Position numbers and translations under genes: made by a program. From Dysidea avara (taxonomy: Eukaryota > Porifera > Demospongiae > Dictyoceratida > Dysideidae), in NCBI RefSeq assembly GCF_963678975.1, contig NC_089276.1:7403098-7467097 (forward strand): DNA of 64,000 bases. Reading direction: 5' to 3'. Below, piece by piece: positions 161-57,415 of this stretch (positions are counted from its first letter, which is position 1; each line of letters starts with the position of its first letter). The notes beneath the pieces were generated by a model, which had not been told where the DNA came from, did no database searches, and was given only the letters and a program-made list of their open reading frames with translations.

Positions 161-164
161 GAAC

Positions 165-300
165 TGTAACAAAATATTTGGTCCGAGTGCATAAACGGTC
201 CGGCCGGACCAAATATGTTCGACATAAATGGTCCGGCCGGACCATCTATGATGACATAAATGGTCCTACCCGAACATAAATGGTCCGGGTTACCAAACTA
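165..300. repeat. Left terminal region with GGTCCGGCCGGACC palindromes
   Basis: Five GGTCC boxes lie here. Two are complete self-complementary blocks (GGTCCGGCCGGACC near 199 and 229) and the others are half or variant sites. Most are preceded by a CATAAATG-like spacer. The array mirrors the right end at 5653-5770. I infer that these are transposase binding sites, because clustered subterminal repeats of this kind do that job in many cut-and-paste elements. Confidence 0.7.
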
Positions 301-759
301 AACTGCAACGACTATTTGCCACCGTACAGTCGACAAGAATAGCTATATACACCAAATATAGGTTAGCCTCATCTCTTTGAAGCGGTGCCTTCAAAGAAAT
401 CTCGCAAAATCTCTCAGCATGCTGACATAAACTAAATCCAATAGATATCTCAGTACTGCTTAGTTAGCTCAAATAGCAGACAGAGTTGGAGTGTATAGAC
501 TGTATAACTGGTTGTTGCGGCCGTATCTTGTTGGTATAGGGAGTCTGGTAGTTAGTTTATACAGCATATCCGGCTAAGGAGCAAGATTCGATACGACGCA
601 GTCGCGTGCCGGCGTTCAATTTACTGACTGAGGATCCGCGGCTATACTGCAGCTACAGCAGGACTATATACTAGCTCTAACGAACACGAAAGGCTCAGAG
701 ATCAAGTTTAGAGTGAATAATCTGCAACTTGAAGTGGCGCAAGTTGCTTGCTTCCAGTG
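301..759 (+). promoter_or_regulatory. 5' non-coding part of the Ginger1 gene
   Basis: No coding signal is seen. The stretch lies between the left terminal palindromes and the first ATG at 760, so promoter and 5' UTR should be here. Several TATATA-like stretches occur (for example near 340 and 666), but none can be chosen as a TATA box from sequence alone. An upstream non-coding exon cannot be excluded. Confidence 0.35.
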
Positions 760-3700
760 ATGGCTCATAATACTGATAAGGAGGATAACCATTTCGAGGA
801 CGAATTGGAAACTGACACACTAGAAGATGTTTATGTTTATGTGACAAGGAAGCAGTATAGAGAAGGCCTTACTCAAAATCAGAAGCGAATTGTAAGAAGA
901 AAGGCAGCAAACTTTTGTGTGGTTGATGGAGAATTGGTGTTTAGAAAAAAACATAAAGGAAAGGATGAGGTGTGGCTATAGTGCACATACATGCATGTAT
1001 ATGTAGCCATATCATTTCTTAATTTGCATGTTCAGGTGCAACAAGTTCGATACATTAGAGAAAGAAAGGAACAGCTTAGGATTGTACAAGCTTGTCATGG
1101 AGATCAGACCTCTGGCCATCTTGGATACAGGAAGACACTGGCAAGAATTACTGAGAGGTTTATGTGGAAAGGGGTATCTAAGGATGCTAAAGAAATTGTA
1201 AGATGCACTCTGCATGAGCATGTAATACAAATGTGATGCCATATTTTGTACGGAATGCATAGGTGCAACGATGTGATATTTGCCAGCATGTGAACAGAAA
1301 GCTAGAAACTATTGCCCCTGCACTGAATCCTGTACCAGTCAAGGCTCCCTGGTATCATCTAGGCGTAGATTTTGTTGGCCCAATTGCATATCAGTCTCCA
1401 GCAGGTATGTATACAGTAAAAGCATGCAATGGCTCTGTAAAGATTAATGGTGAGATCTGTGGCAAACATATTATATTAATATAGTGACCATCACTAAAAT
1501 ATAATATAGCTATTGGCATTCACTTGTCACAGGTATCACCATGCACTTACTTTTCACAGTGCATGCATGAATCAGCATCAATTATTATTATTTATTCTGT
1601 AAAAATTGCACACATTTTTTGCAGGAAATCGCTATATTTTAACAGTTATTGACTACTTCACAAAGTGGGCAGAGGCCATAGCTACCCCGGACAAAAGTGC
1701 ATTTCAAGTAGCTAATTCTCTATTTAAAGTATCTATATACGTAGCTTTATGTAAATGATATCTATTTATAGATCTGTGTTTTATTATAGATTTTCATGAG
1801 GATGGGAATTCCTAGAGTCATCACAACAGATCAGGGAACAGAATTTAACAACCACCTTGATAAACGAATGATGTCATTGCTCCAGATTGATCACAGATTA
1901 ACAACTGCTTATCATCCGCAGGTATAATTTTCTTGCATTGGTGTCCGTAGCAATTATACAACTACATTGTTATTATATCATATACAGATTGTCGATTAAG
2001 TATATATATTTCCCTTAGGCCAATGGCTTGGTTGAACGATTTAACCAGACACTACAGAACATGATTGTGAAATTTATTGATCATAAGAAAGAGCAATGGG
2101 AAGACTTTTTGGATACATGTGTTTATAGCTATAATACCTCCAAACAAGAATCTACACAATACTCACCATTTGAACTCATGTTTGCACGAAAGCCAGTGCT
2201 ACCGGTTGACATTAATACCGAAAAGAAAGATCCTGATGTATTGTTAATGGATTTTTGCAAAGCAGAAGATCCTTCTCTACTTAATGAGCTTCATCATGCT
2301 AAGCAAGCAACACTTAATGCTGCAAAGGCTAACATTCTGAAAGCACAACAAAGACAAAAAGAACAGTATGATAAGACAAACTATAAGCCAGGTATGTAAT
2401 ATATATCTAAAGATACGCCAGTTCAATTTCTTTATGTAGGAGCTTATGCTGTAGGAGCCAAAATGCTTATTAGAGATAATAAAAGGAAGAAAAGGAAGGG
2501 AGGAAAACTGGATTACAGATGGCTTGGTCCTTATGAAATTGTAAAATCACTAGGAAAAGGTCTCTACAGTTTAAAAGGAGTTGAAAATCCTGAAAAGGTC
2601 ATTGAAAGAGTGCATGGCACTCGTCTCAAGCCTTATATGTCTCCAATACAGCCAATACCTCCTAAAGTAAGTTAACTGAATATTTGACATTACTTCTACC
2701 TTGGTTACCTCTTCTGTTTATGTTTAGAGTCCAACTGCAGTAGATGCATCTACCAGTTCTGGTACATCATATTCCGATTCATCAAGCAAAAATCAAAAAT
2801 TTAAGGATTGTGAAGGTATTTATTTATATAATACATTCAGTTAAGGATGTACACCCTGTCTTACTAATACTGTATGCATAATTGTGTGTATCTGCATAAA
2901 TTATGTGTATAGATAAATTTATAAGTTATTTGTTTGTAGTAAACCAACTGCAAGATCAACAAATGGAATCTGACAGTACTGCAAGAAATTCTAATTCACC
3001 TGTGCCACTTCCTTCATTAAGCCAAGGAATAAGCAAGGAGCACTCTGATGGTATATGTGTATATTTATTGAATTATACTTCAAGGTGTGCACATCGTACT
3101 TATTTCATTTAGTTGTACAGGATAGCCAGGAAGTTAACAGTATAATTCAAGCTAGCACACCTCTTTGTATGGAAGAGTTTGTTCCTGAACTACTTCCAAG
3201 TGGCACTCGAATTTCACCAATTTGTGGGACTAAGAAAGGAGATACACAGCTTAGTGCTACACCTAAATCACCTGGTAGGTGTTTCAACAAATTTCTGTAT
3301 TATTTTGATTCATCACAAATTACAGAGAATAGAATTGTAGATGCAATTTTTGATTCGCCTAAAGGAGTTACTAAATGTAAAAGATTACTGCAGTTTTCTA
3401 GTCCTGATAAGAATTGTCCTGATCTTGTGAAACCACAGAGGAAGCGCAAATTGCTGAAAGATGTTTTTAAAACTGTAAGTTTGGCATATTCATCTGCATA
3501 ATGGTGCTGCTACATGTGGCACATTGTACAGAATGAGAGTGCTTGCAAGAAGGTAAAGAGTGATCCAGTGAAGGAGATTCATAAGAATGACTGTGAGATG
3601 GATACAGGATCCACTAATAATGCAGAGGTATAATAACAATGCTATACAGTAGTTATACAGCTATACATTATGCTACATGGAGCACATGTATAATGAATAT

Positions 3701-5061
3701 ATGTTATGTATGTATGCACAAAATATTATCATGTGTTTTATTCCTCAAGAAACAGCTTACTAAGATTTGGAATGGAAAACCATGTCATGTTGTTAAAGCA
3801 AGGATAGGTAGAAATGCAGTTCACCACGGAAGTTTCCACAGCCTAAAACCAAATCAAGATGTAAATGATGAGGTTCATTAATGTCTGACATGTATGTGCT
3901 TATTTAAATGTATTAAATTCCAAAGATAATCCATACATACCTTGAACTGTTATCAAATATCCAAGGAAATACTTTTGCCATGATTTCTCAGACACTATCT
4001 TGCATACTCAGCCATACCTCTGCTGGGAAGCATTCACACCTATTGTCTAAGGTACAGTTACAATGACGGTTAGTAACATTTTGCACACAATAACAAAGTA
4101 ATTAAGCTATGTATAATTATTGCAATGAGAGTTGTTCCCTTGGTTGCTAGGAATCATTGAGCACGTATAAGTACATTGGAGGATGCTACAACCAAGGTAG
4201 TAACCATTGGATTCTCATTGTAAGTCTGCTCATCAGTAACATTGTCATCTGTTACGCTATTATGTTTTTAGGCTATGGACTTGGAGCAGAAAAGCTTTTA
4301 TTATCTTGATCCCTATGGACCTTCACGGTCAAGCCGTGGTGCATTTGCTGCTGTAAAGTTAGTTAGTTACATGGCAAATAAGTTTTTTGGCATACATGTT
4401 ACTTGAAAATGTGACTTCAATTGCTGAACACCTGTTTATACAGGAATTACTTCAAGAGAAGGGGTGAAATATTAGGAAAGGACCATTTAGACATCACTAA
4501 GTTTGAGTTGAAGCAGCTGAAGAGAAAGATTCAGTATGATACCTCCAACTGTGGTGTATACTGCATGAAGGTATAATCATACAATCATTATAAGTATAGC
4601 ATTATAGTTTTTTGTTAGATGGCTGAGCAGCTGTTTCTATCAGGAAGCATTGAAGAAAATAGCCTGTGCAGAATGAATACTACACAAGCACGGATTGATA
4701 TAGGTGTTGCATTGCTTTCATACTCAGGTACTATAGTACATAATGACCTCTAGCTACAAACGAATGTGCCTGCATTATGGTATTTGATATACACATTCTA
4801 TAGTTGATATGACCGAAAGGTGTATAATGTGTGGTGCAGGGGAACAAAGTATAAGTCATCCACAATATGTTGATTGGGTAAGACTAATACACAATAATAT
4901 ATGCACATTTTAATGTATTTTTACAGGTACGATGTGATAAATGTAAGCAATGGTCACACATCATCTGTACCAACCTGAAGCCTGAAGAGGCCAAGAATGT
5001 AAAAACTTTTTCATGCCACGAATGCTCCCAGGACATTCACCAGATTAATGACTTTGAATAA
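760..5061 (+). CDS. Ginger1 transposase: integrase + Ulp1 protease + PHD finger, 19 exons
   Basis: Predicted exons: 760-969, 1036-1197, 1263-1404, 1625-1728, 1790-1921, 2019-2391, 2440-2666, 2728-2815, 2940-3050, 3113-3474, 3532-3627, 3750-3872, 3926-4051, 4151-4219, 4272-4357, 4444-4570, 4619-4727, 4804-4877, 4927-5061. All introns are GT-AG, phases agree throughout, and the product is 951 residues. Seen in order: an N-terminal Ginger/GIN1-like segment (25-60); an HHCC zinc finger ending CDIC (about 90-131); a DDE core with D160 (GVDFVGP), D220 (TTDQGTEF) and E256 (GLVERF), with the last two 35 residues apart; a GPY module (RWLGPYEIV); a Ser-rich linker; a Ulp1/C48-like protease with NDEIIHTYLELL, H771-W, D788 and C840 (SNCGVYC); and a C-terminal PHD finger (C889 to about C940). 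The protein should cut and join transposon ends in the nucleus. The protease may act on SUMO-like partners and the PHD may read histone tails; both roles are inferred. Uncertain points are a possible extra intron inside exon 10 (about 3275-3325) and the weak donor after exon 12. Confidence 0.8.
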
Positions 5062-5652
5062 TTGCAACCATGCCATGTATCTTTATAGCTACAGTGCTTT
5101 AGCATTATAATTTTATTTTAATAGCAAAATTCACCTGTGGAAAATTGTAACAGAATTAGCTACGTAGCAAGATATGAGTAATTATACCTAACATAGCTAC
5201 AGTTAATTATTATTAGCTGTGCCAGAATATAGCTACACTGCATGTTAATTCGAAAATATGAACTTCATACACTGTAGATAACACCTGTGGCAACTTGTAT
5301 GAATCTCATACATGTAGCTATGATTTGTATGATCTTCATGCAAGTTGGCACAGGAGTCATCCACTCGAATTAACAGTGTAATTATTCTAATCACGAATTG
5401 TTCTGGAATAGAAACTACAGTATAGTACACCATAGTTGTTTATGCTAGCAAAGAGACGTTCTACTATAGGGTCGGCTATATTATGCTCAGTCCAGGTACT
5501 GGTATTGATATAGCTTTCTTGTAGCAAAGCCACGGCATCAGGCATGCGTTTGTGGACGCTTAGTTACGGTGGCAGAGGGATCCCTGGTGGCACAGTGGCG
5601 GAATACTTGAGGTAGGGAGTGCCGTTATGGCCGGCTAATGAAAGACTGGAGG
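5062..5652. other. 3' non-coding part of Ginger1
   Basis: No coding signal is seen after the stop. An imperfect foldback lies at about 5235-5379, with arms ACACTGCATGTTAATTCG and CGAATTAACAGTGT. It may be a small nested element or part of the 3' UTR. Confidence 0.4.
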
Positions 5653-5774
5653 CGGACCATTTATGTTCAGGCCGGACCATTTTTGCACAGACATGTATGG
5701 TCCGGGGGGACCAGTTATGCATGCACAAATGGTCCGGCCGGACCGTTTTTGCCCGGACCATCGGTGCGTTGACA
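5653..5774. repeat. Right terminal region with GGTCCGGCCGGACC palindromes
   Basis: This is the mirror of the left end: CGGACCATTTATGTTC, a variant site GGTCCGGGGGGACC and one complete GGTCCGGCCGGACC block, followed by CCCGGACCATCG and the terminal TGACA. Confidence 0.7.
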
Positions 5775-5954
5775 GAACCATCATTAATAATTGATGAGAA
5801 AACATGCATGATTACAAACAAATTATATATTATGTGTCCTCGGACAACATGCGACCACATGTCTGACCAACAGTGGACAGCAGTGGGCATGGCAAAGAAA
5901 AAAAATTATAAATTTAGGTACAAAACTAAAGTTACAGCTTAAATCATATACAGA

Positions 5955-6420
5955 TTAAAAACAGTCCAGGTTGATTGTCCATTCTTTAGAGTTCCTACCA
6001 TAAAATATTCTCTGTGAAGCAGAAATTGAGGCACTGGCCATCTTGAACAAAAGATTTCTAGCACTTCCTTTGGAAAATAGGGATACTTGCCGGGTAAAAT
6101 TTATCACATCCTTAATTGCAGTAATAGAACTAGGTTGAAAATGGCCCAAAACACTGACTTCCACAGTTCTGTAGCAGTGAGGAATCTTCAAACGATCCAA
6201 TTCAGCCAAAAGCTGTACATACTCAGGTTTATAAAGTTTGCGGTTGTGTGCAGACTCCAAATGATGTATTGAGTCCAATGGACATGTAAGCTCTATAATG
6301 CCCATCGATGCAGAGTGTCTGTTATAGATGACAACATCGGGTCTATAAGGAGTGACTAAGACATTGGAGGGGATGGTTTCAGGAGAACTATATTGTGAAT
6401 ATTTTAGTACAAATACAATG
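5955..6420 (-). pseudogene. C-terminal endonuclease fragment of a reverse-transcriptase element
   Basis: The minus-strand frame contains RPDVVIYN, then IELTCP, a basic AHNRK and a conserved VEVSVLGHFQPSS, and ends at a natural stop after NSKEW. PD followed by an E-L-T strand is the pattern of restriction-like (PD-D/ExK) nucleases that follow reverse transcriptase in some non-LTR elements. About 155 residues remain and no reverse transcriptase lies upstream. A canonical donor (GTAAGT) near 6434 and an acceptor near 6390 on the minus strand suggest that the last exon was spliced. The clade is not assigned. The likely origin is a 5'-truncated insertion. Confidence 0.5.
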
Positions 6421-7378
6421 TGTCACAGTTACTTACGTCAGCCACAGTCTGTGCTGCAGTCCTAGCACACTGGCACACTGGCACTGTGCTGCAGTCCTAG
6501 CTCACTGACTTCAGCCGGCGAAATTCAAACGCCATGTATTGGCACGAAATCCCAACTCTATATCTTTCCTGTTAGCAGAATTTGTAAGCTTGTGACGGAT
6601 CATCTGACTGACTGACAAAGTGAACAAAAATTAAAGTGGCATGCCACTACACTGTACGAAGATCCAGTGTGATTAACTCGGCTCGGGAAATAAAGTTGGT
6701 CCATTTAACACTTTATCACCTCGTAGGTTTGTAGCATCATTGCATATCACTTGTCACTTCTGAGTTGCGACTCTTGCGAAGTCACTTTGAGCGGATCATC
6801 TGTCTAGATTCAAAAAATGCACTATCACGTGAGTAGTGTAGGCTAAATATAGAATTGTGTCTAATATTTTTGTTCGGTGAAGGCATAGTGTCTACACGGG
6901 GGAACCCCTGGGGATTCGAGCATACCTTATTTTTAGCGCATCATCGTATTACTATCACCATTCACAAACGAGTTGAATGTTGTGTGCACTCGTGTAGTAG
7001 CAGCGCACAAACAGTAATTTGGGATGCGTGTCAGTTACTGGAAAGCTTGTGACGGAAGTTTAAAAAACATCACTTAGTGACGGGGGGGCAAATGCCTCCC
7101 CTTGCCCCCCCTTGGCTACGCCACTGGACACGAGACAATAATAGGAATACAGACGATTTCGGAATCTATGCAACACAGGAAGTCAATGGAAACGTGAGCT
7201 TGTTACGTATTTCGGCACCTTTTCAAAGCAAATGGATCACGTTTTTGCTTTTCGCTTGACGGTTTTTGTTGCAAAGATCGCGCAATCGTCTGTAACAGTG
7301 TTTTAATAAGAGTACTAGCGCATGCGCAGTAGCACGTGGCTTCAGCCGTTTGACAAGTGGCCGTTAAGGGTTATCAAG
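6421..7378. other. No gene recognised; one transposon-like end
   Basis: Mostly unassigned. A short CTGCAGTCCTAG-type direct repeat occurs at about 6457-6500. At 7081-7128 a run of G followed by a run of C leads into TTGGCTACGCCACTGG, which looks like the end of a GC-tailed transposon, but no matching left end was found. The bases just before 7379 probably contain the start region of the next frame. Confidence 0.35.
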
Positions 7379-9800: not shown

Positions 9801-12220
9801 TCAACTTTCCAATGTTCCACGAAATGTATAATGCTGTCTACCAGGGATGTAGTGGAATACTTTTGACCTTATTAGCTCGTCAATGATTAGCTGTTCATCT
9901 TTCTGTGAAGAAGACCATCTATGTATTGATAATTCCACATACAGGTTATTCTGTTGATCAAACCTGCTACAAACATTCATTATCCCATTCAAATGCTGTC
10001 CACATTGTAAGACAGTTTGTTCCATAATGTTCTCACCAAGACCAGAAACAGCTTCCTTAAGTGACCTGTTAAGATATTCATTTTGCAAGTCTGCAGGTAT
10101 GTTGTGACCTGCTTGCCCTCTAGTGTTTACTATGTCATCTGTGCTGCAATCCTTGGAGTTGCTAGAGCATTGACAGTAGCAAGTGTTTGAAATGTTTGTG
10201 CAGCATAGTTGTGATGGTTAGCAAATTTAGAGTATAGTAGCGAAACTTTCCAGCAATGCAAGATCCCCTTCTCTTATTGCATATTTGAATTCCAGTAAAG
10301 AAAGACCATCATGAAAATCCAAGACTCCATCACTCTGAATTGAATGTGATGCTTCATGGCGGTCTAGTTTTTGTGTTATTGAAGGTGGCAAATTACGGAA
10401 GCTGACTGGTGGAGATGTGGTATAGTCATGCTCTTGCAAACCATGTGGATTCCTATGAGCGTCCTTTAAAAGTATATCAGCTAGTTTAATAGGTTGTGCA
10501 TGACTGCAGAATTGTTTGGGAATAACATACTTATCAACTACACACAATATCTTCTCTAAAAACATTGCTTTCCGCTTCTTTAATGGAAGTGACTTGAGGA
10601 ATATCATTCATATGTGGACTGTTGCCTATATGGGACATTGAAGTGCTGCAGATACAAAATAGCATCTGATAACAGTCTCAAGAAAATCTTCGATATCATT
10701 CACATGTCCTGTGACACTTGTAGACAGTCCTATATTTTGACGTGAAATCAGATTCCTTAGCTGCTGCAGTGTATCACCTTCTAAACTTGAACCTTCCTTG
10801 TACAGGCATGACCACATAATCTATACAGTATACATGCACAAAATCATTACTAAAGTTATGATTAATTATAAGATTACTAACCTCAATAAAATTCACTTTT
10901 GCATGCCAGTCCACACAAAATGGGACAAGCCCACTTAAAGCAGTATTTCCTTGGCTTGTAACTCTTGTTGTCTTAGATCACCAAAGAAAGGAATATGTTT
11001 CTTCTCCATTATTAACTACTGGTACATACTGATGACAGTGCTCTAGTACTCATTTCATCAATATACTGCTCGCAACACTCCTAACAGAACTTGTGTTACC
11101 ATTGATACACATTGTTAATTACAAAAAAACAAAAACAAAAAAAACTTACCAATATAGATTTCTGACTCTTTTCTCGGCTCAATGTGACTGGGAACACAGT
11201 CAGCAAAATCCTTAAAGTATGGTACTGAATTGACCAACTCATGACCTAGCCTAACTGCATAATTGGACTGACAATGGCAATGCGGCCACTTCTCCAATTG
11301 GCTTGTCATTAGAGAAGTGATGAAAATCAGCACGGTCTAGCACAACGAAAGTAATGCAGACTTTGGCGCTGTTTATCTACATTTATATATCGTGGTGAAA
11401 CTGTTGTATCGGCATTATCTCCACCAAGAATATACAGGGTAAGTTAAAGATTGCCTTTTAGAAACAGATACACGTTCCTGTGGAACAGAATCAACTAAAG
11501 AACTTGTTGATTGTGACATGGAATCAAGGTCTCCTTCTACAAGTAACAAATTTAAAATGTGATACGTATGTTCAGATCACATGCAACTAACCTGTAGATG
11601 AGAATACTTCATCTTCCAAATCATCTGAAACACTGCTTTCTATTATCCAGTTATCATCACTCTCCTCATCCTGGTCTACACTTGCTGATTCCATGGCTTT
11701 CTTCCACTCTTTAACCACATTATTGTACCCTTCGCCTAGCGTTCTGATAATCCTTAGGGTCTGCTTATGGCTCACACATATGTCTATTACTGTTCAACCT
11801 TCTAAAGACCTAATTGTGCATCTTACTAAACGTAACAACAAATTATAGTATTTACCTGCTCAGAACAATGTCCTGCATATAAAAAATTGATATCACACTT
11901 TGGGTCTGTGTCATGAATTCGTTTCTGCATTTCAGCAACACTGAAGCAGCTATTCCAACAGAACTTTTGGTTTGGTCTTTATTCTGGACAGTGTAACATT
12001 CTTCCCTTTTCTAACAACCACTGCCTTAAGGAATTTATACAATACTGGAGCACTAAGCTTTAGTTCATGAACGATTTGTTTCCAAGAAAATGAAGCTAGA
12101 TCTGTAGGTGATGTTTTCGGAGTATCGATGCTCCATGTTTGGTAGTGCAAAGTTGATGTGCTTCTTTCTTCAAGATACCAGATACATTGTTTAAGGTATT
12201 TCTTCGCAAGGGAGTACTAC
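9801..12220 (-). pseudogene. Decayed DUF6589-type gene
   Basis: Minus-strand blocks appear in the order expected for DUF6589 proteins: TWSIDTPKTSPTDLASFSWK (about 12100), YAGHCSEQ (about 11880), LSHK-like HKQTLRIIRTLGEG (about 11750), GGDNADTTVSPRYINVDKQ with QSLHYF (about 11400), SNDKPIGEV (about 11300), LVPFCVDWHAKVNFIE (about 10900), TLQQLRNLISRQN with DIEDFLETVI (about 10700), and NIPADLQNEYLNRSLKEAVS with GLGENIMEQ (about 10080). The function of the family is unknown. Introns and exons can still be traced, but the frame jumps near 11330, 11270, 10225 and 10135 and inside the 11880 block, so it is probably dead. Possible upstream exons in the duplicated DNA at 12292-12620 (ending at a GTAAGG donor) may belong to it. 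Confidence 0.7.
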
Positions 12221-26763: not shown

Positions 26764-27071
26764 ATTTGTAAAATGTACGTGTAGATATGATCGTCTAGAG
26801 ATTGCATGAAGTAATATAGTTCGAACTGGTCAGCTAGTTGGTCCAACTCCAGATTATTGGTCCAGCTCAGGCCTGACCAACCGGACCGTCTCCGCCGGCC
26901 TTGTAAAAGCGATTTTCAGTTGATTTTCAAAACAATGCTAGATTCCTATTCTTTCAGCTAATTTATAACCATATCTGCTGGTTAGAGCTCCATATCTTCC
27001 ATCTTAGCCGAGATATCGCCGTTCAAAAATTTTCTTCCCATAGCCGCCCATACAAATTTTATGAATGTCCC

Positions 27072-35023: not shown

Positions 35024-35220
35024 ATAACACTTCTTTTTGTATTTGTATACCCCAAAGCTGGCCATAGGCAGGTTTTGGGCTTTTTTAACCTATCCTATTT
35101 CTTTACCACAGGAAGAATAAAAAGACAGAGCAGATTTTTAATACTTCAACTGTTTTTGATTTTATCAGTAATTATATAAATATATTTATTACATGTCTAT
35201 TATTCCCTACTGGATAACTT

Positions 35221-36378
35221 GTTTGCAGCTGATCTTTCTACTAAAGGACTTGAAATGTAGCTAAACTCTCTACAGGTTGATTTGTTTGTAGCTGCACTCT
35301 CTACAGGGTGATTTGTTTGCATCTGAACTCTCTACGGGGCGATTTGCTTGTAGAAGAACTCTCTACAGGATAGTTTCTTTGTCACTGAACTCTCTGCAAG
35401 GTGACTTGTTCCTAGCTGGCTCTCTACAAGATGACTTCCTCTAGCTGATTTCTCTACAAGGTGACTTGTATCTAGCTGAACTATCTACAGGATGATCTGT
35501 TTGTAACTGAAATCTCAACAGGGTGACTTGTTTCTAGCTGATCTCTCTATAGGGTAACTTGTTTCTAGCTGAACTCTCTACAGAGTGGGTTCTTTGCAGC
35601 TGAACTCTCTACAAGATCACTTCTTCTAGCTGATCTCTCTATAGGGTGACCTGATCTCTCTGTAGGGTGACTTTTATCTAGCTGAACACTCTACAGGGTG
35701 CTTTGCTTGTAGCTGAACTCTCTACAGGGTAATTTATTTGCAGCTGAACTCTATGCAGGATGATTTGTTTGTAGCTGAACTCTCTACAGGATGGTTTCTT
35801 TGTAACTGAACTCTCTACAAGGTGACTTGCTTCTAGCTGATCTCTCTACAGGGTGACTTGTATAGCTGAACTCTCTACAGGGTGATCTGTTTATAGCTGA
35901 ACTCTCTGGGTGATTTGTTTGTGGCTGAACTCTCTACAGGTTTGGATTCTTTGTAGCTGGTCTCTACAAGGTGACTTGTTTCTAGCTGAGCTCTCTACAA
36001 GGTGACTTCTCCTACTACAGGGTGACTTGTATCTATAGCTGAACTATCTACAGGATGATGATCTGTTTGGGTGATGTGTTTCTAGCTGATCTCTCTACAG
36101 GGTGATTTTTTTTGTAGCTGAACTCTCTACAGGGTGATTTGTTTGTAGCTGCTCTCTCTACAGTGGGTGATTTGTTTGTAACTGAAATCTCTACAGGTTG
36201 ATTTGTTTGTAGCTGAAGTCTCTACAAGGTGTTTTGATTGTAGCCGATCTCTCTACAAGGTAATTTGTTTGTAGCTGAACTCACTGCAAGGTGATTTGTT
36301 TGTAGCTTATCTCTCTACAGGGTGATGTGTATGTAGCTGAACTCTCTATAGGGTGATTTGCTTGTAACCGAATTCCCT
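35221..36378. repeat. 31-bp satellite, segment 1
   Basis: Tandem units of the form GTAGCTGAACTCTCTACAGG plus GTGATTTGTTT, with 5-25 percent variation and a few 28-30 bp units. The period is not a multiple of three and stops occur in every frame, so it does not encode a repeat protein. Confidence 0.95.
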
Positions 36379-36382
36379 ATAT

Positions 36383-37028
36383 GTGACCAGATTTTACAGA
36401 ACCGATCCAAATCGCACATCAGGCAAAATCAAACTAACACCACCAGTGGATAGCTACACTATCGTACTACAAGTTTTGACCCTCAGCACTACTCAAACTA
36501 CACGAGGCTGGTTTTTACACACGTCTCTTCTGGGTGGTGTGGAGTGCTCAAATGGTGGTTTCAGGCCTTGTGAAGGACCTGGCTTGGCAAGAGTCAGTGG
36601 TTTACTGGTGGACAGCCTTATAATGTTGGCCAGACGTGTTCTCTGTTGATTTTGCTACATATTAGCCACTAAGGAGCCAGCACAGCCCTGTAATCTCGTG
36701 TCTGGACTCCAATCGTGGTCTGCCTCCATTTTGAGGTCTGTCTTTTGCCCTCCCCGGCACCCCCCAGCCTCCACCCCTTTGTGAGCACTCGTGATACTAC
36801 TTCGCTCGTCCAACTGCTCAGATTTTCTATCTTATTTGGCGGGAAACTGTACAAGCAGCTACAAGTACTGGAAGTGGCTTGAAAGGTAACAGATTGATGC
36901 ATCTTTTGTGTAAATTTCATACGCGTGCTTGCTATCCTTGGATAGTTATGCTGGCTTCAATTCTTTAAAACCGTTTATCTCGAAACTTCTAATGTGCGAT
37001 TTGGATCGTTTTTCCAAAATCCAGTCAC
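36383..37028. mobile_element. GTGAC-family element in the satellite, 646 bp
   Basis: The ends GTGACCAGATTTTAC and, in complement, GTGACTGGATTTTGG lead to a shared GATCCAAATCGCACAT. Target duplication is ATAT (36379-36382 and 37029-37032). The uninterrupted target, CCCTATATTGTGTCTAG, is present in sister satellite units at 37390 and 37708. No gene was seen inside. Confidence 0.85.
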
Positions 37029-37032
37029 ATAT

Positions 37033-38587
37033 TGTGTCTAGTGTCTATATAGCCGATCTCTCTACAGGTTGATTTGTTTGTAGCTGATCTCTCTACAGGG
37101 TGATTTGTTTGTAGCTGATCTCTCTACAGGGTGATTGTTTGTAGCTGATCTCTCTACAGGGTGATTTGTTTGTAGCTGATCTCTCTACAGGGTGATTGTT
37201 TGTAGCTGATCTCTCTACAGGGTGATGTGTTTGAAACTGAAGTCTCTACAGGGTGATATGCTTGCAACTGAATTCTCTATATGTCTATATAGCTGATCTC
37301 TCTACAGGTTGATTTGTTTGTAGCTGAACTCTCTACAGGGTGATTTGTTTGCAGCTGAACTCTCTACAGGGTGATTTGCTTGTAACCGAATTCCCTATAT
37401 TGTGTCTAGTGTCTATATAGCTGATCTCTCTACAGGTTGATTTGTTTGTAGCTGAACTCTCTACAGGGTGATTTGTTTGTAGCTGATCTCTCTACAGGGT
37501 GATTGTTTGTAGCTGATCTCTCTACAGGGTGATGTGGTTGTAGTTGATCTCTCTACAGTGGGTGATTTGTTTGTAACTGAAATCTCTACAGGTTGATTTG
37601 TTTGTAGCTGAACTCGCTGCAAGGTATTTTGTTTGTAGCTGATCTCTCTACAGGGTGATGTGTTTGAAACTGAAGTCTCTACAGGGTGATTTGCTTGCAA
37701 CTGAATTCCCTATATTGTGTCTAGTGTCTATATAGCTGATCTCTCTACAGGTTGATTTGTTTGTAGTTGAACTCTCTACAGGGTGATTTGTTTGCAGCTG
37801 AACTCTCTACAGGGTGATTTGTTTGTAGCTGAACTCTCTACAGGGTGATTTGTTTGTAGCTGATCTCTCTACAGGGTGATTGTTTGTAGCTGATCTCTCT
37901 ACAGGGTGATTTGGTTGTAGCTGCTCTCTCTACAGTGGGTGATTTGTTTGTAACTGAAATCTCTACAGGTTGATTTGTTTGTAGCTGAAGTCTCTACACG
38001 GTGTTTTGTTTGTAGCTGATCTCTCTACAGGGTATTTTGTTTGTAGCTGAACTCACTGCAAGTTGATTTGTTTGTAGCTGATCTCTCTACAGGGTGATGT
38101 TTTTGTAGCTGATCTCTCTACAGGATGATTGTTTGTAGCTGATCTCTCTACAGGGTGATTTGGTTGTAGCTGCTCTCTCTACAGTGGGTGATTTTGTTTG
38201 TAACTGAAATCTCTACAGGTTCATTTGTTTGTAGCTGAAGTCTCTACACGGTGTTTTGTTTGTAGCTGATCTCTCTACAGGGTAATTTGTTTGTAGCTGA
38301 ACTCACTGCAAGGTGATTTGTTTGTAGCTGGTCTCTCTACAAGGTGATTTGTTTGTAGCTGAACCCTCTACAGGGTGATTTGGTTGTAGCTGAACTCTCC
38401 AGAGGGTGAATTGTTTGTAGCTGAATTCTCTACAGGGTGATTTGTTTGTGGCTGAACTCTCTACAGGGTGATTTGTTTGTAGCTGAACTCTCTACCGGGT
38501 GATTTGGTTGTAGCTGAACTCTCCAGAGGGTGAATTGTTTGTAGCTGAACTCTCTACAGGGTGATTTGGTTGTAGCTGATCTCTCTA
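37033..38587. repeat. 31-bp satellite, segment 2, with higher-order pattern
   Basis: The same 31-bp unit. A longer pattern recurs: GAATTCCCTATATTGTGTCT plus AGTGTCTATATAGCTGATC appears near 37030, 37388 and 37708 (a shortened form near 37272) and again near 40770, marking a higher-order repeat. Confidence 0.95.
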
Positions 38588-40557
38588 CAGGGGCGTAAGC
38601 AGGAATTTTGAAAAGGTGTTTCCACTACAGCTAAGTGACTGTTATATTAGAGTAGTTTATATGCCTGACTGCTCTATTAGAGTATCTCGATCTTTTCACT
38701 AAAATCACAATTCAGAACAATGCTATAAGTGTTGCTATCATGTTAGAAACTATTATTTAATTATATAACTAAGATAAAGTTTAAAATGTGTCCTGTTCCA
38801 TGACAGATTCCAGATTCCGGAAACCTGAAGTATCAATGTCTTAATGTTTCGAGTACTATGTAGAGTAAATTATCTATTCTCGGACACCATATATACTCGG
38901 ACACTCGTTCTCGTACACTGCTGCTGGAGTCGGCTGGACGGAATCCTACGAAAATTGGTGTGGACATACGTTGCATATAGTCTAACTACACATCCAAGTT
39001 TGAGCCTAAACGCTTGTTTGATTGTTGTGTTTGACCACATCAAAGTTGTTTCTCGAAATCATATATTCTCGGACAAAATTCAAGTATTGTCGGACACCGG
39101 TCAGTAATCCTACATCAAATATTTTAAAGACTTACCACCAACACCATCTGTTAGGGCTGTTCATTAGCAATCAGCAGAGCCATAGTTTATTTCTTTCTAT
39201 CTCATTTGCAGGAAGCTGTGATCGGAAATGTGCGAGTGTGTTACCACCTCTATTCTCGGACACGAGCTATCAGCTGGTTCTCGTACATGGTTATACCAAA
39301 TCGTCCAAAAATTACTGTGGACATAGTTTACACATAGCCTATCTAAACCTCGAAGTTTGAGCTAAACAGATTTTATGGTTGGCTACCTAGAGCGGATTAA
39401 AGTTTCCACGAGAAAATTAGTATTCTCATTTTTATCGGATAATAGCCAATGCTTCTTACACCAAATAATTTATCCACTTTCTACCACCACCATCTGATAG
39501 AGCTTTTCGTTGGTTATGAGTAGAGCCATAGTTTATTTCTTTCCATCATCGTTATGGACAGTTATGATCGGAAATATGCGAGTATGTAATTACCTCTATT
39601 CTCCGACACATTGTTTCTGTGCTGTCTGATTGAATCTTGGTTCCAGCTATTTCTGGTGATTTTTTTACTTTTCATTTATTTGAACTACTTTAAATAGCAT
39701 GTAATTCCAGTGAACTACCTATTTGTACCACCAGAAATAGCTGGAGCCAATATTCAATCAGACAGCACAGAAACAATGTGTCCGAGAATTGAGGCAATTA
39801 CATACTCGCATATTTCCGATCATAACTATCCATAAAGGTGATGGAAAGAATCAAACTATGGCTCTGCTGATAGCCAATGAACAGCTCTATCAGATGGTGG
39901 TGGTAGGCAGTGAATAAATTATTTGGTGTAAGGAGCATTGGCTATTATACGAGAAAAATGAGAATACTAATTTTCTCGTGGAAACGTTAATCCGCTCTAG
40001 TTAGCCAACCATAAAATCTGTTTAGCTCAATCTTGGAGGTTTAGATAGGCTATGTGTAAACTATGTCCACAATAATTTTTGGACGATTTGGTATAACCAT
40101 GTACGAGAACCAGCTGATAGTTCGTGTCCGAGAATAGAGGTGGTAACACACTCGAACATTTCCGATCACAGCTTCCTGCAAATGAGATAGAAAGAAATAA
40201 ACTATGGCTCTGCTGATAGCTAATGAACAGCCCTAACAGATGGTATTGGTGGTAAGTCTTTAAAAATATTTGATGTAGGATTACTGACCGGTGTCCGACA
40301 ATACTTGAATTTTGTCCGAGAATATATGATTTCGAGCAACAACTTTGATGTGGTCTAACACAACAATCAAACAAGCGTTTAGGCTCAAACTTGGAGGTAT
40401 AGTTAGGCTATATGCAACGTATGTCCACACCAAGTTTCGTAGGATTCCGTCCAGCAGTGTACGAGAACGAGTGTCCGAGTATACATGGTGTCCGAGAATA
40501 GATAATTTACTCTAAAATCCAAAGGGGTTTCCGGAAACCCCCCTCTGTACGCCCCTG
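38588..40557. mobile_element. 1.97 kb foldback element inside the satellite
   Basis: It starts CAGGGGCGTAAGCAGG and ends CTGTACGCCCCTG, and the satellite bases CTCTA stand on both sides. The two halves (about 38860-39690 and 39700-40515) are inverted copies of each other, with repeated GGACAC/GTGTCC boxes and TTCTCGG. The CAGGGGCG end is hAT-like, but only 5 bp can be read as a target duplication and the satellite itself makes this ambiguous. No coding potential. Confidence 0.8.
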
Positions 40558-41890
40558 CTCTACAGGATGATTTGGTTGTAGCTGATCTCTCTACAGTGGG
40601 TGATTTGTTTGTAACTGAAATCTCTACAGGTTGATTTGTTTGTAGCTGATGTCTCTACACAGTGTTTTGTTTGTAGCTGATCTCTCTACAGGGTAATTTG
40701 TTTGTAGCTGAACTCACTGCAAGGTGATTTGTTTGTAGCTGATCTCTTTACAGGGTGATTTGCTTGTAACCGAATTCCCTATATTGTGTCTAGTTTCTAG
40801 CTGATCTCTCTACAGGTTGATTTATTTGTAGATGAACTCTCTACAGGGTGATTGGTTTGTAGCTGAACTCTCTACAGGATTGTTTCTTTGTCACTGAACT
40901 CTCTACAAGGTGACTTGCTTTTAGCTGATCTCTGTAGATGGAGACTTCTTCCAGCTGATCTCTCTACAGGGTGACTTGTACAGCTGAACTCTCTACAGGG
41001 TGATCTGTTCATAGCTGAACTCTCTACAGGTTGATTTGTTTGTAGCTGAAATCTCTTGTTTCAAACTGATTTCACTGTAGGGTAACTTGTTTGTAGCTGA
41101 ACTCTCTACAGGATGGTTTTTTTGTAGCTGAACTCTATATAGGGTGATTTGTATGTACCTGAACTTTCTACAGGGTGATTTGTTTATAGCTGAACACTCT
41201 GCAGGGTGATTTGTTTGTAGTTGATCTCTCTACAGGGTTTCTTTGCAGCTGAGATCTCTATTGGGCAATTTCTTCTAACTGAGCTCTCTCTTGTTTCTAG
41301 CTGTTCTCTCTACAGAGTAACTTGTTTGTATAGCTGAACTCTTTACAGGTGGGCTTTTGGTTGCTGAACTCTCTACACTGTGACTTGTTTGTAGCAAAAT
41401 TCCCTACAGAGTGACTTGTATGTAGCTGAATTCTCTACAGAGTGACTTACTTGTAGCTGAACATTGTATAAACTATAAAGTGACTTGTCTGTAGCTGAAA
41501 TCTCTACAGGGTTACTTGTTTGCAGCTGGTCTCTATAGGTTAACTTGTTTGTATAGATGAACTCTCTACAGGGTAGTTTCTTTGTAGCTGAACTCTCTCC
41601 ACAGTGACTTGTTTGTAGCTGAACTCTCTAGAGAGTGTAGCCAAACTCTCCACAGGGTGCATGACTTGTTTATAGCTGAGCTCTCTTCTAGTGTGACTTG
41701 TAATGTTCTGATTCTTCTGAATCACTACAGCAATATATCTGTAGCTGAACTCTCTATAGGGTGACTTGCTTCTTGCTGAACTGTCTATAAGATTAACTGT
41801 TTGCAGCTGAACTCCCTACAGAATAACTTGCAATGTAATAGAATTCTATAATGGAGTAAATAAATTAGCTGAATGCTCTATTAGGGTGAC
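40558..41890. repeat. 31-bp satellite, segment 3
   Basis: The same unit, becoming more diverged towards 41890. With segments 1 and 2 this makes about 4 kb, or roughly 125-130 units by length. Confidence 0.9.
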
Positions 41891-46104: not shown

Positions 46105-48960
46105 CTAAAGTACCGAGAAATTGCTAGATAAACCTACGTTATAACAATTACTACATCTGCAACAAAAATGATACGTACAAGGATTGTCAGCTGAAAAATG
46201 AAGTGTGAAGTGTTGATGTAGATACTTGTAGATGTTGACTTTAATGACTGATAGTGGCTGGCTTAGATGGATGGATGGTAATTTATTCCACAGTCTTGAT
46301 ATTCTGTTGAAATAGAAGTTCCTGGTGCAATTGTAGACATGGTTGAGTTTATTATTAGAGGATGATCTGGTGTTTGCAGTGCTAAAAGAAACATGATCAT
46401 GTATATTAAAATGGTTGGAAGGCTGCTTTAGAGCTTTGATGAAAAACATGATGTCATAGAAATCCAGTGTATACATTAAAGGCAGTAGATGTAGTTTGAG
46501 GAGACAAGTCTGATAGTTAGATTCATAGTCTTTAAGGATGAATTTAGTTGCTTGTCGCTGAATCTTTTCTAGGGCAATAGTGTCCTTGATCAAGTATGGA
46601 TTCCACAGCTGAGAGCAATAAGTTAACTGAGATCAAACAAGAGTTATGTATAGAGTTTTTTTGGCTTTAACAGAGTGACAGTTACTAAAAGCACGCCTTA
46701 GGAGGCCGAGATATCTATAAGCCTTGGAAGTTATATGTTTGTAATGATTCTCCCAGGAGAGGTTGTCAGAAATTTGTATACCCAAATCACGATGACTGTG
46801 CAGCCGAGGAAGTGTGTTACCATCAAGTGAATAGGAAGTAGGTGTCTTGTTGTTAAAACTCAAGTAGATACATTTACTGATGCCAAAAAATAAGTCAGAG
46901 TCGATGCTCCAGATGTATAGCTGGTCTAGATCCTGTTGTAAATCAGTATGATCAGGGGGGTGAAGAATTATTTTATAAAGCTTGGTGTCATCAGCAAACA
47001 AAAATAGATTAGAAAACTGTGTAGCTAGAGTTAGATCATATATATATACATTAGAAACAGCAGGGGGCCAAGGATGCTGCCCTGGGGAACACCAGATAAT
47101 ACTGGCAATGGATCAGAAATAACATTGCAGACTTTAACATGTTGAAAGCGATTACGTAGGTAGTTATTAAACCAGTTCCAGAGGTTTCCAGTTATTCCAT
47201 AATTTGATAGTTTAACTAAGAGCTTGCTGTGGGATACATTATCAAAAGCCTTATGAAAATCTAGATAAATAGAGTCAATTTGGTGACCTTGGGAAGTAGC
47301 TTTGAAAATATTGTTCAGATATAGCAAAAGTTGTTGGGTGGTGGACCTACCAGGCAAGAATCCAAACTGACAGGTAGTAACATTATTAAGTACATGATCA
47401 ATGATTTTGTTGTAGATAAGAGTTTCTAAAACTTTTGATGTGTTACATAGAAGGGAAATAAGTCTATAATTCTTTACGGATGATCGATCAGCTGATTTGT
47501 AGACTGGTACCACTAGATGAACTTTCCATTCTTGGGGGATAACACCAAATGCCAAACTTAAGTTGAACAGGTGGTATAATGGATGGGTGAGTGATGGAGC
47601 ACAATATTTGAGAATTTTGGGGCTAATAGAGTCAATTCCTGTAGCTTTGTTGGGATCAAGCTGACTTAAAACTGAATACACTTCTTCTTCAGTAAAGGCC
47701 AGTAAGTTCATTTCATTAGAATGTGAAGTTGCATTCGCATAATGTGGAGTTGTAGAAGGTGGAGTAAAAACCGAATGGAAATATTGATTAAAAAGTTTAC
47801 TCTAGAGATGTTGCTGTTAGCTGAGGTAGCATCAAGGTGGATGGTGGGTGGGATTGTGGCTGACTTTGTAAAACTTCTTATGTAATGGTATATTGCAGGA
47901 TTAGAAGAATTGGCATAGTTGGTAATGAGTGTAGTTTCGTAGTTGGACTTAGCAGCAGCTGCACTTTGTTGGAACATTTCTTCAACATGATTTATAGTCG
48001 ACTTGCATTGTGTTCAGAAGGTGAACACTTGTGCTTTCTTCTCAGGGTATGCAAACACTTCAATTGATGTCGTAGACCTCTGCTAAACCACTTGGGGTAT
48101 TGTTTAGAACGGATTTGTATTTTGGGAATAAATAACATCATGGCTTCGTGAATAATAGACTTAATCATATCCCATGTAGCTTCAACATCTGATAGGAACA
48201 AACAGTTGACGATCATAGATTTGGATATGTAGGAATTCATTCCATGAAAATCAGCTTTAGAGAAATCATAAACATGTTGAGAAATATTTTCAGTTCGCTG
48301 AGGTTGAACAAATGATAATTCAAAAGTGATAGCATAGTGATCAGATTTGATACATAGGTTGTCAGTCAGTATCACTTACTGAAATGCTGTCTATTAGGTC
48401 ATCATTGTTTGTAAGGATGAGGTCCAAAGTGTTGCCATGGATATGAGTTGAGCAGGATATTAACTGTGATAAATTATTTTCAAAACATGTGTCACAAAAT
48501 GCTTCAGCAGCAATAGTGCTACCACAGAGAGTATCCCAGTCAATGTCGCGCAAGTTGAAGTCACCTAGTAGTACAATGTTAGAGGACTGTTGAAACTGGT
48601 AGAGATGACTTGATAGAGATTGGATCAGTGATACATTAGGATTAGGAGGTAAGTACACAATACATAGGATAAGTGTTTGTGGGAGTTCCACTTCAACAGT
48701 TAGCATCTCAATATTGGTGGGGGAGGGGAGGACTTTACTGACAATGTTATCCCGCACTGCAAGGAGGACATCACCACCTCTTGAGCCACGATCATTACGA
48801 TATATAGTAAGTATAGTTAGTAGGTAAAATTTTGTTGTCAAATATATTGCTGGATAGCCATGTCTCAGTAATAGCTACAATGTCAAAATTATGGGAATAA
48901 ATCAAAGTTTGAAACGAGGATAATTTGTTAACTATACTTCTTATGTTCATATAATAACAG
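46105..48960 (-). pseudogene. LINE ORF2 (endonuclease and reverse transcriptase)
   Basis: Endonuclease: NIRSIVNKLSSF with ITETWL (about 48930-48860), GSRGGDVLLAVR, LLGDFNLRDIDW, THIHGNTLDLILTN and SDHYAITF. Reverse transcriptase: PNKATGIDSISPKILK, YRLISLL, GFLPGRSTTQQL, YLDFHKAFDNVSH, SGVPQGSILGPLLFL and FADDTKLY, with the catalytic F-A-D-D intact. The C-terminal part ends FNRISRLWNKLPSIHL and runs to 46105. Frame breaks lie near 48800, 48365, 47985, 47720, 47015 and 46610. The order and motifs are those of the CR1/L2 group. Confidence 0.85.
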
Positions 48961-49145
48961 CTGAGTAGTCATTGATTTGTTGTAGGTGCTGCAGAAGAAG
49001 ATTGCTGATTTATAGATGTCATTAGAGGGAGTGGGGGATTATAATCAGAACGGCATAGTTCAGAATTATGGTATTGTCCATAGAGTTTGTTGTCGATAAA
49101 AATGCTTTTGTTTCTAATTTTAATTCTTTTCTAGTCAAAGCCTAA

Positions 49146-49960
49146 TTACATCAATGTCCATCTTTCTTTAAGCAATGCAGATTCAGCTTTCCTTTCTTCC
49201 GGCGTCATGTCAGGTTTGATTCGTACTGGAGCTTGGAATGAGGCAATTTTGGTTAAAGCCATGGTGGCTTCTGTGGATCGTAGAAATTTAATGAGAATTG
49301 GCCTGGGGCGTGAAGTATCAGATTTGTATTTGCCCAAACGGAAGCAATCCTTGACTGAACTGGCCTGGATCGATAAGTCAACTTTAGCAAATTCATTGGT
49401 GATTGATTGTAAATCATTTTCCAGACGGTCAGATTTAGATGTTTTGGGTGGGCTTTCTTTAATACCGTACATGACAACATTGAACTTCTTGTCCTCATAA
49501 CTAGCAGTAGATGGTGGTTTATTAGTGAGGGTGACACTTGCAGGCTTAGGTTGAGAGTTTGCAGAGGTTGATCCATCAAGCATTGATACAGGCTCCAGAG
49601 TAGGTTCCAATGACTTGACGGAGGTCTGGAGAGCTGCAATAGATTTGGTGAGTGAAGCAATTGTGGCTTTCAGATCTAAAATGGTTGAGCAGTGTTCCTT
49701 TAGTTGGCAATTAAACTGGTAAACACAGATTTGGGAAGACCTGCGCAACCTCTATGCAACCAGGAGTTGCACTGGCCTTCACAGAAAATACCCTTCTTAG
49801 ACTTACTGGAATCTTGTATTACTTCTAGACAAATACACCAACCTTTCTTCTTGGTTTTCTTTGGCTGACACGAGTATTGTGATGAATCGCCTGGTCTGTT
49901 ACGCTTTAAGCTAGAAGTGGTGTCCATGCTGGCTGCATCAGTGTCTTTAGAGGACGACAT
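49146..49960 (-). pseudogene. LINE ORF1 (PHD finger, coiled coil, RNA-binding part)
   Basis: Starts MSSSKDTDAASMDTT at 49960. A PHD-type finger follows: CICLEV, then FCEGQCNSWLHRGCAGLPKS. The frame is lost near 49705-49745, probably by a deletion, and resumes with a helical segment (LKATIASLTKSIAALQTSVK) and an RRM-like part (FNVVMYGIKES, RPRPILIKFLRSTE). It ends at 49146 after LLKERWTLM. The protein would bind element RNA. Confidence 0.75.
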
Positions 49961-57344: not shown

Positions 57345-57415
57345 TTTATGGTGCTGTGACAGGTACGTCGGCTATATTGTCATACCCCGCTACATTTATG
57401 GTGCTGTGGTAACCA

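Follow-up and report, generated by a model that had tools for sequence, protein, structure and literature searches.

A Ginger1-lineage transposon of the sponge Dysidea avara whose Ulp1-PHD tail differs from that of common Ginger1-like proteins

In a 64,000-nucleotide stretch of the Dysidea avara genome (NCBI RefSeq assembly GCF_963678975.1, contig NC_089276.1, positions 7,403,098 to 7,467,097 of the forward strand; hereafter the window), positions 165 to 5,774 are best read as an apparently intact, autonomous transposon of the Ginger1 lineage. It encodes one 932-residue transposase whose C-terminal tail, a Ulp1 protease of the C48 family followed by a PHD finger, was acquired separately or replaced; we put the probability of this reading at about 0.7. 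It is supported by a discordance between the integrase and Ulp1 sequences, which suggests a tail separate from the common Ginger1-like tail. The domains concerned are located as follows.

1063..1298, forward strand: H2C2 integrase zinc finger, residues 80-136, spanning an intron (Pfam 1e-17)
1347..1918, forward strand: integrase core rve, residues 153-249, with D160 and D220 (Pfam 1.1e-11)
2034-2036, forward strand: integrase E256
3756..4811, forward strand: Ulp1/C48 protease domain, residues 653-866, limits by eye (Pfam 1.3e-10; Foldseek to Ulp1)
4821..5025, forward strand: C4HC3 PHD finger, residues 870-921, with cage positions W888 and W897

The best database match of the window protein was P0001, a D. 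avara protein of 932 residues listed as 'uncharacterized protein', 'isoform X2', which is identical to it at 927 of 932 residues (5 differences). All features of a Gypsy-type integrase (H2C2 finger, D,D-35-E core and GPY/F motif) were found, and the triad was invariant wherever a 17-protein alignment had a letter (D160 in 13/13 rows, D220 in 15/15, E256 in 16/16). The HHCC finger, the D160/D220/E256 triad with D35E spacing and the GPY motif, which a first-pass annotation had read from the DNA letters, are indeed present, with the triad positions exact. The YPYY region ahead of the zinc finger, compared by eye, reads YREG...F...F in P0001 against YPEG...Y in Ephydatia muelleri P0004, the proline being replaced. 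A search with the P0001 integrase returned 686 proteins, the best 120 of which were considered; the integrase tree comprised 110 rows, 11 short rows (P0028, P0040, P0047 and P0112 among them) being left out. In this tree the window was placed with sponge Ginger-like proteins in a clade of 28 rows (100/96), and neither reverse transcriptase nor RNase H was present in any of the 27 database rows of that clade. The OTU-bearing P0036 and its neighbor P0032 adjoin the clade, and the reverse-transcriptase-bearing rows lie on the opposite side of the tree, save P0038 and P0059, which are outside the window clade. The integrase therefore groups with Ginger1-like proteins and not with reverse-transcriptase elements, among reference rows that include no published Ginger1 by name. 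The nearest PDB sequences were the Ty3 and foamy-virus integrases, and the similarity to Ty3 could be taken to mean that the integrase part is a Gypsy retrotransposon remnant lying next to an unrelated Ulp1-PHD gene. However, a single spliced frame joins the two parts, the same architecture is found in P0001 and P0002, the spliced protein gave no reverse transcriptase match with Pfam, and the tree separates the window from the reverse-transcriptase rows as described; we regard this explanation as scarcely credible.

The integrase of P0001 is 52-63% identical to those of five common-type Ginger1-like proteins, but in the Ulp1 domain there is hardly any alignment with them. The comparison was made between a window group (P0001, P0002, P0005 and P0019) and a common-type group (P0006, P0007, P0011, P0014 and P0025). 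In 20/20 pairs between the types, the integrases were 52-67% identical, whereas the C48 domains scored only 33-59 (mean 44.5), the shuffled control (1,000 shuffles) having a mean of 29.1, 95% at 39 and a maximum of 52. Within types, the C48 scores were 154-897 for the common type (10 pairs) and 344-639 for the window type (6 pairs), and the common-type C48 scored 144-303 in 15/15 pairs with three outgroups, P0030, P0033 and P0199, of only 41-50% integrase identity. Direct phmmer searches between the two Ulp1 types gave at most 9.4 bits. When C48 profiles were run on 202 proteins, 6 were matched by the window-type profile and 107 by that of the common type, a single protein being shared (P0168, 15.6 bits with the window-type vs 232 bits with the common-type profile). 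The window-type profile scored 37.7 bits on yeast Ulp1 (E 1.5e-8) and 35.5 on SENP2, and the common-type profile 29.7 on SENP1 and 15.6 on Ulp1. A search with window residues 680-930 (E 0.001), run on 599 candidates of similar length that shared short words, retrieved P0001, P0002 and P0003 only. In a 40-row tree, the window type was placed inside a 27-row clade (95/94) together with common-type proteins.

On these sequence comparisons, the window Ulp1 differs from the common Ginger1 type, a point that the first-pass annotation had missed; its C48 does not align with those of Hydra and sponge Ginger1-like proteins as a common Ginger1 tail would. The simplest reading is that the tail was captured separately, or replaced. 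Since a tree of the Ulp1-PHD cassette had a very long branch and drew a warning about joined long branches (27/112 rows were dropped for length), the claim of separate capture rests on the pairwise scores and profiles. A literature search that took in passages of PMC9587614, PMC12863088 and PMC6446971, and lay outside Repbase and subscription papers, found neither a second Ulp1 type described for Ginger1 nor a Ginger1 described from sponges, and in the main text of the D. avara genome paper, as far as it was covered, neither 'Ginger' nor 'transpos' occurs.

A profile search, which the first-pass annotation had proposed, found H2C2, rve and Peptidase_C48, the last at profile positions 91-197 of 217, and gave the PHD finger a score under its cut-off, to which we return below. 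In the rows of the 17-protein alignment with a letter, H752, Q815 and C821 were each conserved in 15/15 and D769 in 15/16; the His-Asp-Cys set, the oxyanion Gln and the fold of the predicted model agree with the C48 class. The His-Asp-Cys set had been reported as H771, D788 and C840; the set stands, but each of these numbers is 19 too high, the residues being H752, D769 and C821. In the relative P0002, N replaces the catalytic Asp. When the AlphaFold model of P0001 (built with 17 sequences) was submitted to Foldseek, yeast Ulp1 came first (2hl9, E 9.5e-11, template modeling (TM) score 0.78 on the target), followed by human SENP2 and then SENP1. The model had a mean predicted local distance difference test (pLDDT) score of 51 and a poor integrase core, and was used for the Ulp1 region only, where the 10-residue blocks between residues 651 and 860 had mean pLDDT values of 53-89. 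The cellular Ulp1, SENP1 and SENP2 proteases share the predicted fold and the H-D-Q-C set with the window domain, but are not part of a transposase.

In the PHD finger, all eight zinc ligands (C870, C873, C891, C894, H899, C902, C918 and C921) are in place in the alignment, as had been claimed. The C4HC3 pattern was found in 13/121 proteins examined, with a Trp two residues before the His in 13/13; the residue three before the third Cys was W in four and M in nine, six of these nine being near-identical Ephydatia proteins. The cage of PHF13 is given as F241, M246 and W255 in a passage of PMC4915813, and W888 and W897 of the window stand at the same spacing (nine residues) as M246 and W255. Profiles, built from eight PHDs or from the window type alone, matched the PHDs of EBS, PHF2, KDM5A/B, BPTF and similar proteins, the window-type profile having EBS, KDM5B and PHF2 as its best matches in the PDB. 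Several PHDs of the PHF2, KDM5A/B and BPTF kind are known readers of histone H3 trimethylated at lysine 4 (H3K4me3). Those of EBS and SHL are likewise described as H3K4me3 readers in a passage of a review (PMC13361950). The PHD may have been captured together with the Ulp1 domain or apart from it; with other transposon PHDs the window-type profile did not exceed 23.0 bits, vs 37.7 on EBS, in searches that differ in size.

The gene consists of 20 exons and 19 introns, all GT-AG, with intron lengths of 48-220 bp (median 62), and its spliced frame is open throughout to give the 932-residue product; the first-pass count of 19 exons and 951 residues could not be reproduced. Exon borders were set by eye, which initially gave a stop-free product of 930 residues; P0001 agreed with this splicing everywhere but in exon 13, the borders of which were then fitted to P0001.

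760..969, forward strand: exon 1, start codon at 760, in agreement with P0001
1036..1197, forward strand: exon 2
1263..1404, forward strand: exon 3
1625..1728, forward strand: exon 4
1790..1921, forward strand: exon 5
2019..2391, forward strand: exon 6
2440..2666, forward strand: exon 7, with GPY at 2526-2534
2728..2815, forward strand: exon 8, linker
2940..3050, forward strand: exon 9, linker
3113..3274, forward strand: exon 10, linker
3326..3474, forward strand: exon 11, linker
3532..3627, forward strand: exon 12, linker
3756..3872, forward strand: exon 13, where the Ulp1 domain begins, borders from P0001
3926..4051, forward strand: exon 14
4151..4219, forward strand: exon 15, catalytic H752 at 4205-4207
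4272..4357, forward strand: exon 16, catalytic D769 at 4308-4310
4444..4570, forward strand: exon 17, Q815, and catalytic C821 at 4550-4552
4619..4727, forward strand: exon 18
4804..4877, forward strand: exon 19
4927..5061, forward strand: exon 20, with the stop codon

To our knowledge, this is among the most intron-rich transposase genes. Its 19 introns are consistent with movement as DNA rather than via RNA. The number is unusual when set against the 0-4 introns given for Ginger1 in passages of Bao et al. 2010 (PMC2836005), a range that is descriptive there and no criterion. Introns of the relatives were compared indirectly, from gaps between their protein models and not from their DNA: after removal of duplicates, 40 stretches skipped between gene models, with flanks at least 7/8 identical, provided 80 borders. 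Window introns were met exactly by 13 of these, at residues 124 (two borders; gapped models P0025 and P0021), 206 (seven; P0029, P0115 and P0034), 250 (two; P0034 and Hydra P0043), 733 and 756 (one each; Dysidea P0019). Borders near residue 70 were 1-2 residues off the window intron, and the remainder did not coincide with window introns, many of them lying in the linker or in the common-type tail. In the tail of Ephydatia P0020, by eye, borders fall right after the Asp and about 7 residues before the Cys, where the window is free of introns.

The outer limits of the element were determined from its terminal sequences, as listed.

161..164, strand not applicable: left copy of the target site duplication GAAC
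165..5774, forward strand: whole element, 5,610 bp, TGTAAC...GTTGACA, the one TGT/ACA pair of 21 that is flanked by a 4-bp duplication; terminal repeats
165..300, forward strand: left terminal inverted repeat, six CATAAATGGTCCGG-like units, part palindromic, with a 33-bp period
5640..5774, reverse strand: right terminal inverted repeat, seven CATAAATGGTCCGG-like units
5775..5778, strand not applicable: right copy of the target site duplication GAAC

The 4-bp direct duplication was found for this one of the 21 TGT/ACA pairs near the borders (3 TGT x 7 ACA), about 21/256 being expected by chance on our own arithmetic. Inverted-repeat alignment of the outer 70 bp of both ends gave a local score of 64, the maximum of 200 shuffles being 26. 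The 13 CATAAATGGTCCGG-like units of the two ends (up to 3 mismatches) occur in both orientations, and some are arranged as GGTCCGGCCGGACC palindromes; the entire window holds 27 such unit matches, 14 of them outside the element (100 shuffles gave 8 at most), and a single match of the end palindrome outside the element, at 26865 with 3 mismatches. The GGTCCGGCCGGACC palindromes of the ends (165-300 and 5640-5774) include CCGG, which is also the published Ginger1 target sequence.

According to passages of Bao et al. 2010 (PMC2836005), Ginger1 elements have a Gypsy-like integrase with GPY/F and YPYY motifs, terminal inverted repeats of 40-270 bp, TGTNR ends and 4-bp target duplications, the targets of 112 Hydra elements being CCGG in 75% and CCGT/ACGG in 24%, and 15/16 families encode a C-terminal OTU or Ulp1 protease. 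The present element has imperfect terminal repeats of about 135 bp, TGTAA and TGTCA ends, a 4-bp duplication and a C-terminal Ulp1 domain, whereas its target, at the single insertion read here, is GAAC and not CCGG or CCGT/ACGG. Because this target deviates, and one site gives no preference, we speak of the Ginger1 lineage and not of a typical Ginger1. The description is of one copy within the 64-kb window, and searches of collections of viral contigs and genome contigs found no relatives of the locus. Overall, the ends, the GAAC duplication, the terminal inverted repeats and the open spliced frame uphold the first-pass reading of positions 165..5774 as an apparently intact Ginger1-type transposon.

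The same features bear on whether the locus might be a domesticated host gene, i.e., an old Ginger1 copy kept as a many-exon gene in the manner of GIN1 or Imagin. The 19 introns, far above the published 0-4, point that way, as host genes of Ginger1 descent also have several (6-8 in Gin-1/2; Imagin is multiexon). However, the window gene is flanked by a duplication and terminal repeats, its D,D,E triad is complete, unlike that of Imagin, which also lacks inverted repeats, and the 90% cluster of P0001 lists 31 sequences, which hints at several copies without being a copy count. Domestication is thus, in our judgment, quite improbable.

A more serious competitor to separate capture is that the element is an ordinary Ginger1, the Ulp1-PHD tail of which descended from the common Ginger1 tail and merely diverged fast. 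The domain order and the catalytic set are the same in both types, both PHD types match similar PDB PHDs, and hhalign assigned the two Ulp1 types a probability of 47% (E 0.00019), i.e., a remote kinship. Against this, the window-type C48 is not fast, since P0001 and P0002 are 56% identical there and 65% in the integrase; the window profile scores higher on yeast Ulp1 and SENP2 than on any of the 107 common-type proteins (15.6 bits at most); the common C48 was retained in proteins of more distant integrase; and the PHD spacing and the inferred tail introns differ between the types. Fast divergence is, therefore, unlikely.

Several points nonetheless weigh against our preferred reading of an intact element with a separately acquired tail. 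Besides the hhalign kinship, the between-type C48 mean exceeds that of the shuffles (44.5 vs 29.1), although both results would be expected if the two types were branches of a single protease superfamily. There is dependence among the 20 pairs, the integrases being 99% alike in P0005/P0019 and in P0006/P0025; for P0005 and P0019 the C48 piece is not complete, and domain limits were set manually. The four window-type proteins are grouped at only 62/30 in the 40-row tree. The intron comparison is indirect, and several of its 13 exact borders reflect a single gap that recurs with different partners. Over their outermost 14 bp, the two ends show a poor match except for TGT and AAC, which is unlike a freshly moved element. 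As for the PHD finger, its Pfam match (0.0012, 19.3 bits) is below the 24-bit cut-off, and the position of PHF13 F241 is occupied, at the same spacing by eye, by the non-aromatic P883, with Y885 two residues away, in a comparison where the loop lengths of the two PHDs differ. The window PHD also matched PHD chains of Alfin-like proteins; according to a passage of the same review (PMC13361950), H3K4me0/1/2 is read by an Alfin1-like protein, which goes against a strict H3K4me3 reading.

The combination of Ulp1 and PHD on one Ginger1 protein, which the first-pass annotation had offered as a less known arrangement, was already tabulated by Bao et al. 2010 (PMC2836005): in passages of that paper, the entry for Ginger1-9_HM reads 'Ulp1, PHD', and an alignment of the two domains is mentioned in the legend of Figure 1e. 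This Hydra element shares the Ginger1 integrase and the C-terminal Ulp1 and PHD with the window and has terminal inverted repeats of 120 bp; it differs in having 2 introns vs 19, as described there, its own Ulp1 type being outside our comparison. Hydra P0028 and P0043 match the common-type C48 profile, into which a piece of P0028 was built. By Pfam (E up to 0.1), PHD and C48 occur together in 6/10 relatives scanned (P0001, P0002, P0007, P0011, P0040 and P0047); in the others, P0014 and P0019 had PHD without a Pfam C48, P0028 had C48 without PHD, and P0112 had OTU. The Ephydatia muelleri proteins P0006, P0011 and P0014 share an integrase 52-63% identical to that of P0001, and P0011 and P0014 the PHD, but their C48 is of the common type and hardly alignable with that of the window.

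Ulp1 followed by PHD at the C-terminus was also seen in the Mutator-like element (MULE)-type P0195, in the SWIM-finger proteins P0184, P0189 and P0191 and in the DDE_1 protein P0162, which differ from the window protein in that no integrase core was found and the C48 is of the common type; as a SWIM finger is all that was found in P0184, P0189 and P0191, their MULE assignment is a guess. P0171 combines a MULE-type domain with the common tail, its C48 being detected only with the profile built here, and P0182, a predicted Rhopilema esculentum protein, a KDZ domain with the common C48 but without PHD; P0162 and P0182 are gene models that may be fusions of neighboring elements. Ulp1 in Mutator elements was noted in passages of Bao et al. 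2010 (PMC2836005). GIN1/GIN2 and Imagin share the Ginger1 derivation and several introns, but are host genes. RAG2 offers another parallel, as a recombinase partner that binds H3K4me3 through a PHD. It differs in being a separate subunit, and the catalytic core is unrelated.

Taken together, these features suggest a mechanism of movement. The transposase would first recognize the palindromic GGTCCGGCCGGACC units in the terminal repeats. Its retroviral-type integrase core would then cut the TGT/ACA ends and join them across a 4-bp stagger, leaving the GAAC duplications; the core and the duplication are observed, and we infer the cut-and-join reaction from them. The PHD finger may bind nucleosomes with K4-methylated histone H3 through the W888/W897 cage and steer insertion there, a proposal drawn from the two kept cage positions of H3K4me3 readers. 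Finally, the Ulp1 domain, of which the predicted fold and the catalytic residues are in evidence, might strip the small ubiquitin-like modifier (SUMO) from the transposase or from chromatin or repair proteins at the site. A role in SUMO-type modification and chromatin recognition had been suggested by the first-pass annotation; it is still a conjecture, made more specific by the fold and the PHD profile searches.

Elsewhere in the window, a 1,801-residue open frame at 57413-62815 (forward strand) is a BEL/Pao-type retrotransposon, in which a scan of three pieces found DUF1759, reverse transcriptase, Pao peptidase A17, a weak integrase core and DUF5641. A long interspersed nuclear element (LINE)-type element lies in pieces on the reverse strand at 47034-48874 (endonuclease 48365-48874, reverse transcriptase 47034-47801), with further open stretches around it from 46108 to 49751. 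A 31-bp satellite, TAGCTGATCTCTCTACAGGGTGATTTGTTTG with variants, forms several arrays in 35219-41637, and an open stretch on the reverse strand at 9804-10217 matched DUF6589 at 22.2 bits, under the cut-off. Close to the transposon, a 155-residue open stretch at 5958-6422 on the reverse strand had no Pfam match; by eye, it resembles the endonuclease-like tail of a retroelement.

We know of no settled function for the Ulp1-type proteases of DNA transposons. A role in transposition, for example via repair factors, is discussed in passages of Bao et al. 2010 (PMC2836005). We lean towards the view that Ginger1 gained a SUMO protease with an H3K4me3-type PHD behind it at least twice independently, once, in the lineage of the present element, from a Ulp1/SENP1-2-like source, the common version also occurring with MULE-type, DDE_1 and (without PHD) KDZ proteins. 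If one kind of integrase twice came to be followed by the same captured domain pair, then selection, not accident, probably keeps the pair. Such repeated recruitment, if true, would mean that DNA transposition in eukaryotes repeatedly requires the removal of SUMO together with the reading of active chromatin, and the open frame and defined ends of the D. avara element would allow direct tests of what these two activities contribute to transposition.

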